The notes: generated by a model not told the origin, from the letters alone. Shown: positions 1 through 12,009, counted from the first letter of the stretch. The stretch: DNA of 64,000 nt from Bifidobacterium asteroides (GCF_019469425.1 NZ_CP048272.1:868001-932000), one strand, 5' to 3'. A program made the numbers and translations.

Positions 1-444
1 GAGCTGGGCCGGCATGCCAATGGCGCAGGAATGGTCATGTCTTTGGAGATGTACGAGGACACCTATTTGGGCCGCGCTGACTCCGCCGTTCATTTCGTAT
101 CCGAAGTAGGCCTGCCCAACGTGGGTCTCAATCCTGACGTAGGCAACCTGGTACGTCTGCGCCGGCGGATCGATGATTGGCGCGAAACCTATCGGAAAAC
201 GCTTCCATATGCGGTTTACTGGCATCTGAAGAACTATCAGCGCGACGAAGCCCCTGACGGTTCCTGGCATGTTGCTATACCCACAACCTTGCGTGACGGC
301 ATCATCGATTACCGTTGGGCGGTCCATTATGCCCAAAGCTGCGGATACCAGGGCATGTTCATCTGTGAGCACTACGGGGGCGATGTCCTGTCTGTCTGCG
401 CTCACAACGCTGGATACCTGCAGAAACTACTTTCCCGGCCGTGA
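1..444 (+). CDS. Sugar phosphate isomerase/epimerase-family TIM-barrel protein, 3' end only
   Basis: The reading frame is open from base 1, so the N-terminus lies outside the window; 147 residues are visible. The sequence resembles the C-terminal half of xylose-isomerase-like TIM barrels (AP endonuclease 2 fold). It has a GLNPDVGNL segment, a YWHLKNYQRDE strand with a likely metal-ligand histidine, and a CEHYGGD strand ending in a conserved glutamate. Segments of this kind occur, as I recall, in the 3-oxoisoapionate decarboxylase (OiaC) branch, which releases L-erythrulose; 2-oxo-tetronate isomerases (OtnI) and hydroxypyruvate isomerases are related. The gene sits 74 bases before pdxA-, gntP-, rpiB- and tpi-like genes on the same strand, so it is probably part of that operon. 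The exact substrate is inference. Confidence 0.7.
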   Translation, partial: ELGRHANGAGMVMSLEMYEDTYLGRADSAVHFVSEVGLPNVGLNPDVGNLVRLRRRIDDWRETYRKTLPYAVYWHLKNYQRDEAPDGSWHVAIPTTLRDGIIDYRWAVHYAQSCGYQGMFICEHYGGDVLSVCAHNAGYLQKLLSRP

Positions 445-518
445 CCTTCGAAACGATGAACCTATCGGTCAATGATTTGGGGAAATAAACCAACACCATA
501 TCCAACAAAGGAGTACAT

Positions 519-1514
519 ATGAGTGCAAATGCATCAACAAAACCGCGTATTGCCATGACATTCGGCGATCCGGCCGGCATTGGCCCTGAACTTGGCGTCA
601 GACTGCTCGCTGATCCCAAAAACCGTAAGTCCGCCGACATCTATGTTTTGGCTGACAGGGTTGAGGTGGAGTCCGCGGCCGAGAAGGCCGGCCTCGAAGT
701 CCCCATTGCTGGTCAGCCTAATGATGATGCGGTAGCCGTTCTCGACGATCATTCGCTACCTGAAACCGCTATCCCCGTCAAGCAGACGTCCAAGGTAGCC
801 GGCGAGCGCGCACTGCATCAGCTCAGTCGTGGACTTGATCTAGCGCGCGATGGCAAAATTGAAGCCATGGTTTTCATGCCGCTGAACAAGACCAGCCTGC
901 ACCTGGGCGGCATGAACGAGCTCGACGAACTCCGTTGGTTCGCCAAGAAACTGGGATTCAATGGGTTTACGAGTGAAATCAATATCATTCCAGGATTGTG
1001 GACTTCAAGGGTGACCAGTCACATGGGACTCAAGGACGTGCCGGGCCGTATCACCAAGGATGGTGTGGTCAGCGCAATCACTCTGCTGCACAACTTGCTG
1101 CATGACTCGGGCATAGCAGAACCCCGCCTTGGTGTTTGCGCTTTGAACCCCCATAATGGCGAGAACGGCATTTTTGGCCGTGAGGAGATCGATATCATTC
1201 GTCCCGGTATCGAGCAGGCTCGGCAGGCCGGTGTCAACGTGGATGGGACCTATCCGGCTGACACCATATTTATTGGCGCCAAGGACAGGTATGACGGTGT
1301 CGTTACGATGTACCACGATCAGGGCCAGATCGCTATAAAGCTGATGGGCTTTGACGGTGGAGTCACTGTCCAAGGCGGTCTTCCTGTCTTCATAGATACG
1401 CCTGCGCATGGAACGGCATTCGATCTGGTTGGTCAGAACAAGGCCAACATCACCTCAAGCCAGAATGCCTTCAACATTGCCTGCGCCATCGGATCAAGCA
1501 GGGTCAATCGCTGA
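519..1514 (+). CDS. pdxA2: PdxA-family 4-phospho-hydroxyacid dehydrogenase, probably catabolic PdxA2 type
   Basis: 331 residues, normal PdxA length. The N-terminal glycine-rich strand TFGDPAGIGPEL is typical of the family. The three metal-binding histidines are present in SHMGLKD, NPHNGENG and MYHDQG. Classical PdxA oxidises 4-phosphohydroxy-L-threonine in vitamin B6 synthesis. The PdxA2 branch oxidises and decarboxylates 4-phospho-D-threonate or 4-phospho-D-erythronate to dihydroxyacetone phosphate and CO2. Placement beside a GntP permease and two sugar-phosphate isomerases favours the catabolic role. No kinase of the DUF1537 family, which would make the phosphorylated substrate, is visible; it could lie upstream of the window. 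The start ATG at 519 follows a purine-rich AAAGGAG 6 bases upstream. Confidence 0.8.
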   Translation: MSANASTKPRIAMTFGDPAGIGPELGVRLLADPKNRKSADIYVLADRVEVESAAEKAGLEVPIAGQPNDDAVAVLDDHSLPETAIPVKQTSKVAGERALHQLSRGLDLARDGKIEAMVFMPLNKTSLHLGGMNELDELRWFAKKLGFNGFTSEINIIPGLWTSRVTSHMGLKDVPGRITKDGVVSAITLLHNLLHDSGIAEPRLGVCALNPHNGENGIFGREEIDIIRPGIEQARQAGVNVDGTYPADTIFIGAKDRYDGVVTMYHDQGQIAIKLMGFDGGVTVQGGLPVFIDTPAHGTAFDLVGQNKANITSSQNAFNIACAIGSSRVNR

Positions 1515-1650
1515 TCGTCAAGATCCTGCCGGCGGTCAGGCGAAAGAGGTCGACAACGGATGTCATCCGCTTCCCTGACTGTTCGACGTGCCCCGGCATC
1601 CTTATGGCTCCGGGGCCATCTTTTGGTCATACATTCAAGGAAAGAGTGTC

Positions 1651-2994
1651 ATGCTTCCAGTTCTCAGCGGCATTGCCGCCATCATTGTTTTAATAGTTTT
1701 GATTGTGTACTGCAAACTACATCCCTTTGTGGCGCTCATCATCTCATCTTTGTGCCTTGGTTTGGTCAATGGCCTGGGCACGGAGAAGACCGTCAAATCC
1801 TTTACTACGGGATTCGGTTCTCAGCTGTCCACCACCGGTATCGTGATAGGTTTGGGAGCCATTATCGGTGGGATGCTCGTCAGCAGCGGCGGTGCCGAAC
1901 GAATAGCCAGCGTGATCGTGGGCAAGAGCAAGAAAGCTCTGATCCCCCTTGCCGTAGGTCTGGTGGCTTTGATCATCGAATTGCCCAATTTGTTCGAGGT
2001 CACTTTCGTGCTCCTTATCCCAATTGTGTTCTCTGTGGCTAAGAGGACTCATACCAGTGCGCTTTACGTAGCCATACCTATGGCAGCCGGTATGATGACC
2101 GCCCATGGTCTGCTTCCTCCCGGCCCTGCTACCGTCATCGGTGCGGGCGCAATCGGGGTGGACCTCGGGTTGGTTTCCATGATCGGCATCGTAATCTGCA
2201 TTCCTGTGTTCGCGGCCGGTGTCTGGCTGTTCCCCAAGCTCATGCAACGGTATTACCTTCGCTATCAGGTAAGCGACGGCTCTGAGTATGCCACCAAGGA
2301 CGACGCCCTGGCACAGGCCCCTAGCATGCTCAAATCGCTGCCTTCGGTTCTGCTGGCCCCAATTCTGCTGATCATCGGCACCATCGGCAAGGCGGTCTTC
2401 TCCAAGGGCTCCGTCGGTTATGTGATTACGCAATTCTTTGGAAATGCTGTAGTCGCCTTGCTGCTGTCGGCCCTGTACGCGCTGATCTTCTTGGGGCTCG
2501 GTTCGGGCATGACCGCCAAGAAAACATTGAGTCAGAGCAAGACCAGCCTAAAAGGTGTGGTCAATGTTCTGCTGATCATTGGCGCAGGCGGCGGCCTTAA
2601 GGAAATGCTGCAGAGCACTGGTCTGAGCGATCAAATAGCGACAACCACGGCCAAGTGGGCCATTCCCACCGTTCTGCTGGCCTGGCTGATCGCCGCGCTC
2701 TTCCGAGTTGCTCTTGGGTCTGGCACGGTCGCTGTGGCGGCTGCAGCGGGCATCGTTGCTCCGATGGTTGCGCAAGCTGATGATTTGCATAAGGCGCTGG
2801 CTGTTCTAGCCATCGCCGTAGGAGCCATGATCTTCTCTCATGTAAATGATGGCGCCTTCTGGCTCTTCCAGGAGTATCTGGACATGACAGTTCCTCAGAC
2901 CTTGAAGACATGGAGCTTCCTGGTGACTGTCCAATCGGTGGCGGGTCTGATTGCTCTGCTGCTGGTGGATGCCGTCCTAGGCATTGTGGTATAG
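1651..2994 (+). CDS. GntP-family gluconate/sugar-acid:H+ symporter
   Basis: Integral membrane permease of 447 residues with 12 or more hydrophobic segments. The early GAIIGGMLVSSGGAERIA stretch and the late HVNDGAFW motif are hallmarks of GntP-family carriers, which take up gluconate and related aldonic acids. The frame is open from 1588, but ATG 1651 is preferred because AAGGAAAG stands about 6 bases upstream and the protein then starts directly at a hydrophobic helix. It lies between the PdxA-like and RpiB-like genes, so it probably imports the acid sugar degraded by the neighbours. The specific substrate cannot be told from sequence. Confidence 0.85.
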   Translation: MLPVLSGIAAIIVLIVLIVYCKLHPFVALIISSLCLGLVNGLGTEKTVKSFTTGFGSQLSTTGIVIGLGAIIGGMLVSSGGAERIASVIVGKSKKALIPLAVGLVALIIELPNLFEVTFVLLIPIVFSVAKRTHTSALYVAIPMAAGMMTAHGLLPPGPATVIGAGAIGVDLGLVSMIGIVICIPVFAAGVWLFPKLMQRYYLRYQVSDGSEYATKDDALAQAPSMLKSLPSVLLAPILLIIGTIGKAVFSKGSVGYVITQFFGNAVVALLLSALYALIFLGLGSGMTAKKTLSQSKTSLKGVVNVLLIIGAGGGLKEMLQSTGLSDQIATTTAKWAIPTVLLAWLIAALFRVALGSGTVAVAAAAGIVAPMVAQADDLHKALAVLAIAVGAMIFSHVNDGAFWLFQEYLDMTVPQTLKTWSFLVTVQSVAGLIALLLVDAVLGIVV

Positions 2995-3045
2995 GCCGCT
3001 AGCCCGATAAGTCGATATTCGAGATTCAAGGAAAGGTGAAAGATA

Positions 3046-3486
3046 ATGAGACTGGCGTTCGGAGCCGATCCTAATGCTGCAGGGTTGAAGAATGTGCTTA
3101 TGGAGGAGGCAAGACGCCTGGGTCACGAGGTGATCGATTTTCCTACTGATGATCCAATCTACGCCAACGTGGCCATTGTCCTTGCGCAGTCTGTGGTTCG
3201 GGGTGAAGCGGATCGAGGCGTCCTGCTTTGCGGGACGGGTTTAGGCGTTTCGATCTCGGCCAATAAGGTGCCGGGAGCCTATTGCGCCTGCGTATCGGAC
3301 ATATATCAAGCCGAGCGTGCACGCCGCAGCAATGATGCGAACATCATCGCCATGGGTGCTCAGGTTCTGGGACCCGAAACAGCCAAATGCCTGTTAAGGG
3401 CTTATCTGGCCAGTGAGTTCGATCCTGATTCCAGAAGTGGCCCAAAGGTGGCGCGCATCCGTCAATTTGAGCTTCATCAGCAATGA
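3046..3486 (+). CDS. RpiB/LacA/LacB-family sugar-phosphate isomerase
   Basis: 146 residues, the usual RpiB size. The active-site segment LLCGTGLGVSISANKVPG keeps the catalytic cysteine and the phosphate-handling glycines. In the later helix the usual HN(D/A)AN motif reads SNDAN, so the ring-opening histidine position carries serine. That fits an enzyme acting on an open-chain substrate rather than ribose 5-phosphate, as in DerI/EryI-type D-erythrulose 4-phosphate isomerases, which give D-erythrose 4-phosphate. The next gene is a TPI-like protein, the same pairing seen in erythritol and L-erythrulose catabolism. GAAAGG about 9 bases upstream supports the ATG start. Family assignment is firm; substrate is inferred from context. 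Confidence 0.85.
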   Translation: MRLAFGADPNAAGLKNVLMEEARRLGHEVIDFPTDDPIYANVAIVLAQSVVRGEADRGVLLCGTGLGVSISANKVPGAYCACVSDIYQAERARRSNDANIIAMGAQVLGPETAKCLLRAYLASEFDPDSRSGPKVARIRQFELHQQ

Positions 3487-3527
3487 TGAATCCGTGGGCA
3501 GCAGACAGTCAATTTTCATTGCGCTAA

Positions 3528-4292
3528 GTGGGGAAGATGAACAAGCCGATTGTGGCCATAAGCCTGAAGATGTATTTTACAAGGAAACAGACACTGGCAT
3601 ATTGTCGACGATTAGCCGATCTTCTCAATGCCGCAGCCCTCCCGCTGGACAAGGTGACCATGGCGGTTCTGCCGGATTACCTTACGGTGGAGCAGGCTGG
3701 ACAGGCTCTGCTGTCCGCGGATGTTCATCTCGGCATTCAGGATGTATGCGATCAAGACCGTGGCCCGTTTACTGGGGAGGTCTCGCCCCTGGATGCTTTT
3801 GACCTGGGTGTGACCGTGGCTGAAGTGGGTCATGAGGAACGCCGTCGCATGTATGGGGAAGATGATGAACTCATCGGGCGAAAGGTTCGTGCATGCTGGC
3901 GCAATGGGTTGACACCCCTGCTGTGCGTGGGCGAGCTCATCAACCAAGGGCCTGACGCGGCCGCTGATTATTGCTTAAAGCAGATTGAAATGGGACTGGG
4001 TGAGAAGCCTGACCTTCCAGCCTGGATTGCATATGAACCGGTCTGGGCCGTCGGGGCTTCCAGCCCTGCTCCAGTTGAATACGTTCGAAAGGTATGTTCG
4101 ATTATCAAAAATGAGCTTGGTTTCAAATGCCGCAATCTGTCGCTCATATATGGAGGGGCCGCTGCTCCGGGATTGTTGACTGAGCTTTGGCCGACGGTCG
4201 ATGGGGTGTTCCTAGGTCGTTTCGCGCATGATCCTGCTGCTTTTCTGGAAGTGGTGAAAGAGGCCTGGCGCTTGGTCAGCCAGGACTCGTAG
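3528..4292 (+). CDS. Triose-phosphate-isomerase-like protein, probable L-erythrulose 1-phosphate isomerase type
   Basis: 254 residues if started at GTG 3528; ATG 3537 is an equally possible start with a GGGG run just before it. The catalytic triad of triose-phosphate isomerase is kept: lysine in SLKMYF, histidine in VGHEERR and glutamate in AYEPVWAVG. Surrounding residues depart from the housekeeping enzyme: NWKMN has become SLKMY, GHSERR has become GHEERR, loop 6 reads VGASSPAP, and the phosphate-binding GGS/GGAS loops read YGGAA and FLGRFA. This pattern matches paralogs such as TpiA2/EryH/LerI, which interconvert L-erythrulose 1-phosphate and D-erythrulose 4-phosphate. It follows rpiB closely and ends the operon; the infC promoter begins 18 bases after its stop. 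Confidence 0.75.
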   Translation: MGKMNKPIVAISLKMYFTRKQTLAYCRRLADLLNAAALPLDKVTMAVLPDYLTVEQAGQALLSADVHLGIQDVCDQDRGPFTGEVSPLDAFDLGVTVAEVGHEERRRMYGEDDELIGRKVRACWRNGLTPLLCVGELINQGPDAAADYCLKQIEMGLGEKPDLPAWIAYEPVWAVGASSPAPVEYVRKVCSIIKNELGFKCRNLSLIYGGAAAPGLLTELWPTVDGVFLGRFAHDPAAFLEVVKEAWRLVSQDS

Positions 4293-11984: not shown

Positions 11985-12009
11985 GCCTTCTCTCACAATC
12001 AGATCAGTG

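Follow-up and report, generated by a model that had tools for sequence, protein, structure and literature searches.

Gene content of the operon

The DNA analyzed here is a 64,000-nucleotide stretch of Bifidobacterium asteroides (GCF_019469425.1 NZ_CP048272.1:868001-932000; the window), whose left edge cuts through a catabolic operon. The genome (G000) consists of one 2.23-Mb contig, in which the window is G000:C1:868001-932000, and the upstream part of the operon was read from the surrounding locus L002, where position 12001 is window base 1. A first-pass annotation of the window had assigned five co-directional genes to broad families and expected a kinase (DUF1537 or LerK-like) upstream. All five genes are present, and their Pfam domains agree with these families. 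Upstream we found a LerK-type kinase with fused Dak1 and Dak2 domains and a SorC-type regulator; genes of a hexuronate or gluconate operon, which the annotation had considered, were not found there. The operon runs in the order regulator, kinase, AP_endonuc_2 protein (APE), PdxA, GntP, RpiB and TPI:

L002 8431-9390, upstream of the window: SorC-type regulator, PF04198 sugar-binding domain
L002 9743-11518, upstream of the window: kinase (DAK), 591 amino acids, Dak1 and Dak2 fused; NCBIfam "dihydroxyacetone kinase family", 683 bits
G000:C1:867515-868444 (L002 11515-12444): full APE gene; its ATG precedes window base 1 by about 485 bases
Window 1..444 (+): last 147 amino acids of APE; AP_endonuc_2 (PF01261), xylose-isomerase-like TIM barrel
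519..1514 (+): class II PdxA-family dehydrogenase, 331 amino acids; PF04166
1651..2994 (+): GntP-family permease, 447 amino acids; PF02447, 399 bits; with a further open GTG at 1588
3046..3486 (+): RpiB/LacAB isomerase, putatively DerI-type; LacAB_RpiB PF02502
3528..4292 (+): TPI-family isomerase, LerI-type; TIM PF00121

Read from the genome upstream of the window, the complete APE has 309-318 amino acids, and its ATG overlaps the stop codon of the kinase gene as ATGA. For GntP, a 447-amino-acid homologue in another genus begins at the corresponding ATG. Gene calls in GC-rich loci were based on codon-position GC and tblastn.

The kinase and isomerases point to erythrose 4-phosphate

LerK is an L-erythrulose 1-kinase, and LerI and DerI jointly convert L-erythrulose 1-phosphate to erythrose 4-phosphate (PMC10733421). 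The window TPI belongs to a 29-row clade together with TPIs encoded in APE loci, ApnO-type loci and the Rhizobium erythritol locus, a clade which is separated from the housekeeping TPIs with a support of 100/99. Forcing the window TPI together with the housekeeping TPI was rejected (p-AU 0.0034), and a separate housekeeping TPI is encoded at G000:C1:1145701. The operon RpiB is the sole close RpiB of the genome and shares 46% identity with the RpiB encoded in the erythritol locus of pRL12; its best match is the DerI model, with a score below the cut-off. Judged by this kinship, the presence of the LerK, LerI and DerI steps appears well supported, in line with the earlier assignment of the isomerases to the LerI and DerI types.

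A second bifidobacterial operon, observed in six loci (L016-L021; e.g., L016 4028-10253), comprises a SorC-type regulator followed by genes for an MFS permease, a DUF1537 kinase, a class I PdxA, RpiB and TPI. Its TPI (53%) and RpiB (70%) group with the copies of the window. This operon may produce erythrulose phosphate from a phosphorylated five-carbon acid rather than dihydroxyacetone phosphate (DHAP) from D-threonate.

The window PdxA probably acts on an unphosphorylated substrate

The substrate ligands recorded for E. coli PdxA are H136, T137, K274, N283 and R292. The window protein carries E, L, K, T and I at these positions, so that K274 alone of the five is retained, together with the metal ligands His166, His211 and His266. 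We termed class II the clade with E at 136 and I, V or L at 292, to which the window PdxA belongs. E at 136 was found in 87 of 103 aligned PdxA proteins, and those sampled for the tree formed one clade (support 100). E. coli PdxA falls in class I, as does the PdxA adjoining a DUF1537 kinase in six further loci of bifidobacteria; in the PdxA of these DUF1537 operons the phosphosubstrate residues are retained. TphB dihydrodiol dehydrogenase is a PdxA homologue encoded beside an aromatic dioxygenase. Two PdxA homologues in such a setting also lack H136, T137 and R292 and are expected to act on unphosphorylated diols. A search of the genome revealed no DUF1537 kinase. Due to the loss of the phosphosubstrate residues, the same loss in the dioxygenase-adjacent homologues and the missing DUF1537 kinase, the window PdxA more probably acts on a substrate without phosphate. 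The first-pass annotation had described the protein as PdxA2-like, had named a DUF1537 kinase as one candidate for the missing kinase and had proposed a delivery of DHAP; the first description is replaced by class II, and the other two proposals find no support in this genome. Both PdxA and TPI, for which a place among the housekeeping copies had been considered, lie outside these copies in the trees.

Class II relatives with 49-54% identity are found in loci of Pseudomonas, Variovorax and Cupriavidus, which variously encode an amidohydrolase, TTT transporters, an enolase-superfamily dehydratase, an aldehyde dehydrogenase and cytochrome b561. This gene set matches the L-ascorbate/2-carboxy-L-lyxonate pathway that Stack et al. 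reportedly described in 2020 (a study listed among the references of PMC10444878), in which a PdxA-family enzyme is said to decarboxylate 2-carboxy-L-lyxonate with catalytic use of NAD. Lactonase, cytochrome b561 and lyxonate dehydratase were not found within the window operon. Class II proteins are publicly annotated as 4-hydroxythreonine-4-phosphate dehydrogenase (pyridoxine biosynthesis) despite the residue loss (loci L148, L149, L153, L154, L155, L156 and L157). In Cupriavidus necator A5-1, a TnpB-like (Cas12f1-like TNB) protein is encoded close to the class II PdxA (L034 12359-13360).

APE is distantly related to the OiaC-position protein

The TIM barrel protein APE had been described as OiaC/OtnI-like, of which a distant kinship to the OiaC-position protein remains. 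Its identification as OtnI was rejected (E. coli OtnI [YgbM], 26.6 bits pairwise and a profile probability of 13.5%), as was orthology to OiaC (26% over 118 amino acids). EryC was also discarded, as APE showed no pairwise relation to the EryC-position protein of pRL12 and a profile probability of 0.8%. The OiaC-position protein was taken from actinomycete ApnO-type loci, which encode a PF16896 protein with a KARI_N match, a 264-amino-acid AP_endonuc_2 protein (OiaC position), DAK, TPI, RpiB and, in some cases, GntP. We take PF16896 to be ApnO; the KARI_N match and the place beside the AP_endonuc_2 protein and the LerK, LerI and DerI homologues are in line with this. APE matched the OiaC-position protein with 97.4% (profile versus profile) and 95.6% (profile versus one sequence) at about 20% identity, and both share the motifs LE-x-YE, D-x-x-N, H-x-K-N/D and E-H. 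The nearest solved structure, 5tnv, is named by family only, and weak NCBIfam matches were obtained to D-psicose and L-ribulose-5-phosphate 3-epimerases.

No PF16896 (ApnO-type) protein was found in the B. asteroides genome or in three other operon-bearing genomes. Four genomes possess an APE locus in addition to an ApnO-type one, with separate kinase and isomerase copies in the two (G256, L122/L163; G432, L125/L161; G360, L128/L160; G187, L130/L158). These separate back ends within single genomes suggest that the two kinds of loci serve different substrates.

Two unrelated dehydrogenases replace each other beside APE

APE homologues were detected in 98 of the 396 genomes of the order. Among 67 APE neighbourhoods, 19 contained a class II PdxA, 36 a 3HCDH-family (3-hydroxyacyl-CoA-dehydrogenase-type) dehydrogenase, none both and 12 neither, although for some loci the partner gene may fall outside the stretch that was read. 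Six of these 12 encode an LtnD-like (NAD_binding_2/11-type) dehydrogenase. Under independence, the chance of observing no overlap would be 6e-9; as the loci are related, the better figure is the number of exchanges, and PdxA and 3HCDH were exchanged at least seven times on the APE tree. The 3HCDH family includes lambda-crystallin, an L-gulonate 3-dehydrogenase; the structures 3ado and 3f3s were among the matches. The feature common to the PdxA and the nonhomologous 3HCDH families is the oxidation of the 3-hydroxyl of a hydroxy acid.

The surroundings of APE differ between the two variants. S. meliloti, Shinella and Paracoccus carry the core genes as PdxA-TctCBA-APE-DAK or APE-DAK-PdxA operons without TPI and RpiB. 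TctA (TTT transporter) is present in 15 of the 19 PdxA loci and in 0 of the 36 3HCDH loci; the substrate imported in the case of the PdxA loci may therefore be a more acidic one, e.g., a 2-carboxy-pentonate. The bifidobacterial loci contain GntP in place of TctA; this permease is 72% identical between two genera and about 30% identical to the GntP of ApnO loci. The APE/3HCDH loci L121, L127, L221, L222 and L226 also encode two enzymes known from L-threonate catabolism, a DUF1537 kinase and an LtnD-like dehydrogenase; threonate is another breakdown product of ascorbate. The B. asteroides genome itself encodes two 3HCDH-family dehydrogenases distant from the operon (G000:C1:2139441 and 2167181). 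They were found in the genus relatives tested and had no strong counterpart in G028.

Proposed pathway and alternative explanations

We consider it rather probable that the operon encodes a sugar-acid pathway that reaches erythrose 4-phosphate via C3 oxidation, decarboxylation by APE and the LerK, LerI and DerI steps. GntP would import a five-carbon hydroxy acid, and the class II PdxA would use NAD to oxidize the hydroxyl at C3 of this acid, which yields a 3-oxo acid, and would also remove a second carboxylate if the substrate has one on C2. APE would act like OiaC and decarboxylate the 3-oxo-pentonate to L-erythrulose, which the Dak1-Dak2 kinase (LerK) would phosphorylate to L-erythrulose 1-phosphate. 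The TPI-like protein (LerI) would convert this compound to D-erythrulose 4-phosphate, and the RpiB-like protein (DerI) would form D-erythrose 4-phosphate for the bifid shunt, with the SorC-type regulator controlling the operon. Sequence, synteny and trees argue for the gene set, the LerK/LerI/DerI back end, the unphosphorylated substrate and C3 oxidation in the PdxA slot, whereas we infer the reaction of APE (3-oxo-pentonate decarboxylation) and the pathway substrate. The earlier proposal of tetrose or sugar-acid catabolism delivering erythrose 4-phosphate is thus retained at the level of sequence, and so is that of a mixed or new route, as the combination matches no known one.

With regard to the substrate, diketogulonate derived from ascorbate gives 2-carboxy-L-lyxonolactone and 2-carboxy-L-xylonolactone, which lose CO2 to yield L-lyxonate and L-xylonate (PMC11066805). 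An L configuration at C4 of a linear five-carbon acid would give L-erythrulose, the substrate of LerK, and LerI would therefore be needed. Since both L-lyxonate and L-xylonate have the right C4, they are plausible substrates, no more; these acids or their 2-carboxy forms from ascorbate are our tentative favourites, with the balance still tipping against them. In an equally speculative extension, a widespread and as yet undescribed route of actinomycetes, rhizobia and some bifidobacteria could convert L-pentonates (via 3HCDH) or 2-carboxy-L-pentonates (via class II PdxA), both from vitamin C, to a shared 3-oxo-pentonate, from which a new family of AP_endonuc_2 decarboxylases would form L-erythrulose and thereby lead to erythrose 4-phosphate. 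In the literature searched, we found no described route that matches the entry-enzyme families and nothing that joins apionate with erythrulose. Earlier descriptions of part of the route may exist, especially of the 3HCDH version.

Several points weigh against the proposed pathway. The L configuration of the erythrulose is deduced from the presence of LerI. PdxA-family enzymes usually decarboxylate their beta-keto acid product themselves, which would make APE redundant as a decarboxylase unless the substrate has two carboxylates or the 3-oxo acid is released. Because TTT transporters accompany PdxA loci and none of the 3HCDH loci, the PdxA and 3HCDH variants may start from different substrates. 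Finally, a Curtobacterium locus (L022 8147-14197) encodes a 65% identical PdxA by a DUF1537 kinase, a GntR regulator and an MFS permease, without APE and DAK; class II PdxA is therefore not always tied to this route.

One alternative we regard as unlikely, though less so than the others. PdxA alone would convert the pentonate to erythrulose by oxidation and decarboxylation, and APE, in the manner of EryC or tagatose 3-epimerase, would invert C3 of D-erythrulose or its 1-phosphate and so provide the L form on which LerI acts. PdxA enzymes are oxidative decarboxylases, and the AP_endonuc_2 family contains 3-epimerases, two models of which match APE weakly. EryC, an erythrulose-1-phosphate 3-epimerase encoded beside TPI and RpiB homologues (PMC10733421), provides a precedent. 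However, a relation between APE and EryC is undetectable, and the 3HCDH-bearing APE loci would be left without a decarboxylase, as 3HCDH enzymes do not decarboxylate. Furthermore, epimerizing D-erythrulose would be needless, with D-erythrulose 4-phosphate one step away.

Two further possibilities appear quite improbable, to a similar degree. In the first, which takes up the OiaC reaction named in the first-pass annotation, D-apionate would pass through 3-oxoisoapionate, from which an OiaC-like APE would form L-erythrulose, and PdxA would stand in for ApnO. The back end would be identical, ApnO-type loci exist in Actinomycetes, and their AP_endonuc_2 protein is distantly similar to APE; however, the genome lacks a detectable PF16896 protein, C3 of apionate is a tertiary alcohol that cannot be oxidized by PdxA-type hydride transfer, and the genomes with both kinds of loci suggest different substrates. 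In the second, PdxA would be a redox-neutral 2-carboxy-pentonate decarboxylase, as is reported for the ascorbate pathway, and APE would isomerize the pentonate or a derivative before cleavage. The gene context of the nearest class II relatives favours this explanation, but dehydratase, aldolase and oxidase are all absent from the operon, and the replacement by 3HCDH implies a net oxidation at the PdxA step.

A route in which PdxA2 oxidizes 4-phospho-D-threonate or -erythronate to DHAP, which TPI converts to glyceraldehyde 3-phosphate, would fit the PdxA family membership and the DUF1537-PdxA-RpiB-TPI operons of other bifidobacteria, but is highly improbable given that no DUF1537 kinase was found in the genome, that the phosphosubstrate residues kept in those operons are lost and that DAK, APE and RpiB would be left unexplained.

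Distribution and genomic setting

This kind of PdxA was found in 4 of the 151 genomes of the family, i.e., in the host, two congeners (97%) and a member of another genus (73%). The whole set is conserved in the same order in all four, and thus in three genomes besides the host, one of them of another genus. The cluster constitutes a clean insert of about 8 kb before infC, the next gene downstream, and most of the genus lacks it. Above the regulator lies an asparagine-synthetase-like gene, asnB (L002 6372-8431; names of the flanking genes are from open reading frame reading). In four sister genomes without the cluster, msrA lies directly before infC, while a fifth contains asnB and no cluster (L276-L280). 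According to these patterns between msrA and infC, asnB and the cluster are blocks that were gained or lost independently. The GC content of the operon is 55.8%, compared to 62.7% for the window, and a recent transfer of the operon is likely.

Taken together, the cassette probably imports a five-carbon plant sugar acid, oxidizes and decarboxylates it to L-erythrulose and delivers erythrose 4-phosphate for fermentation. If true, this would open central metabolism to five-carbon acids through a route in which two unrelated dehydrogenases have repeatedly taken each other's place, and bifidobacteria could feed an acid from plants or ascorbate into the bifid shunt. It would also assign a role to an entire AP_endonuc_2 family, for which the one close solved structure (5tnv) bears a family name alone, and correct the automatic naming of class II PdxA proteins as vitamin B6 enzymes.

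Comparison with known systems

Carter et al. reportedly described in 2018 an oxidative D-apionate pathway with ApnO, OiaC, LerK, LerI and DerI. The window operon resembles it in an AP_endonuc_2 protein for the step from a 3-oxo acid to L-erythrulose (presumed for APE), in the same kinase and two isomerases and in GntP, present in some apionate loci. It differs in that ApnO is missing, a class II PdxA would be the entry dehydrogenase and APE shares only about 20% identity with the protein in the OiaC position. With D-threonate/D-erythronate catabolism (DUF1537 kinase and PdxA2) it has the PdxA superfamily in common, but the window PdxA lacks the phosphosubstrate residues and such a kinase is missing. 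In the L-ascorbate pathway reported by Stack et al., a class II PdxA-like enzyme acts at C3 of an unphosphorylated C5-C6 acid, and relatives possess TTT transporters. That pathway leads via L-lyxonate to 2-oxoglutarate, whereas the proposed output of the window operon is erythrulose, and lactonase, cytochrome b561 and dehydratase are missing from it. With tetritol catabolism (EltD/LerK/LerI/DerI; EryA/B/C/H/I), it shares the SorC-type regulator and, as proposed, the LerK, LerI and DerI steps. Unlike tetritol catabolism, the route would begin with an acid rather than a polyol, EltD, EryA and EryB are lacking, and APE is not EryC.

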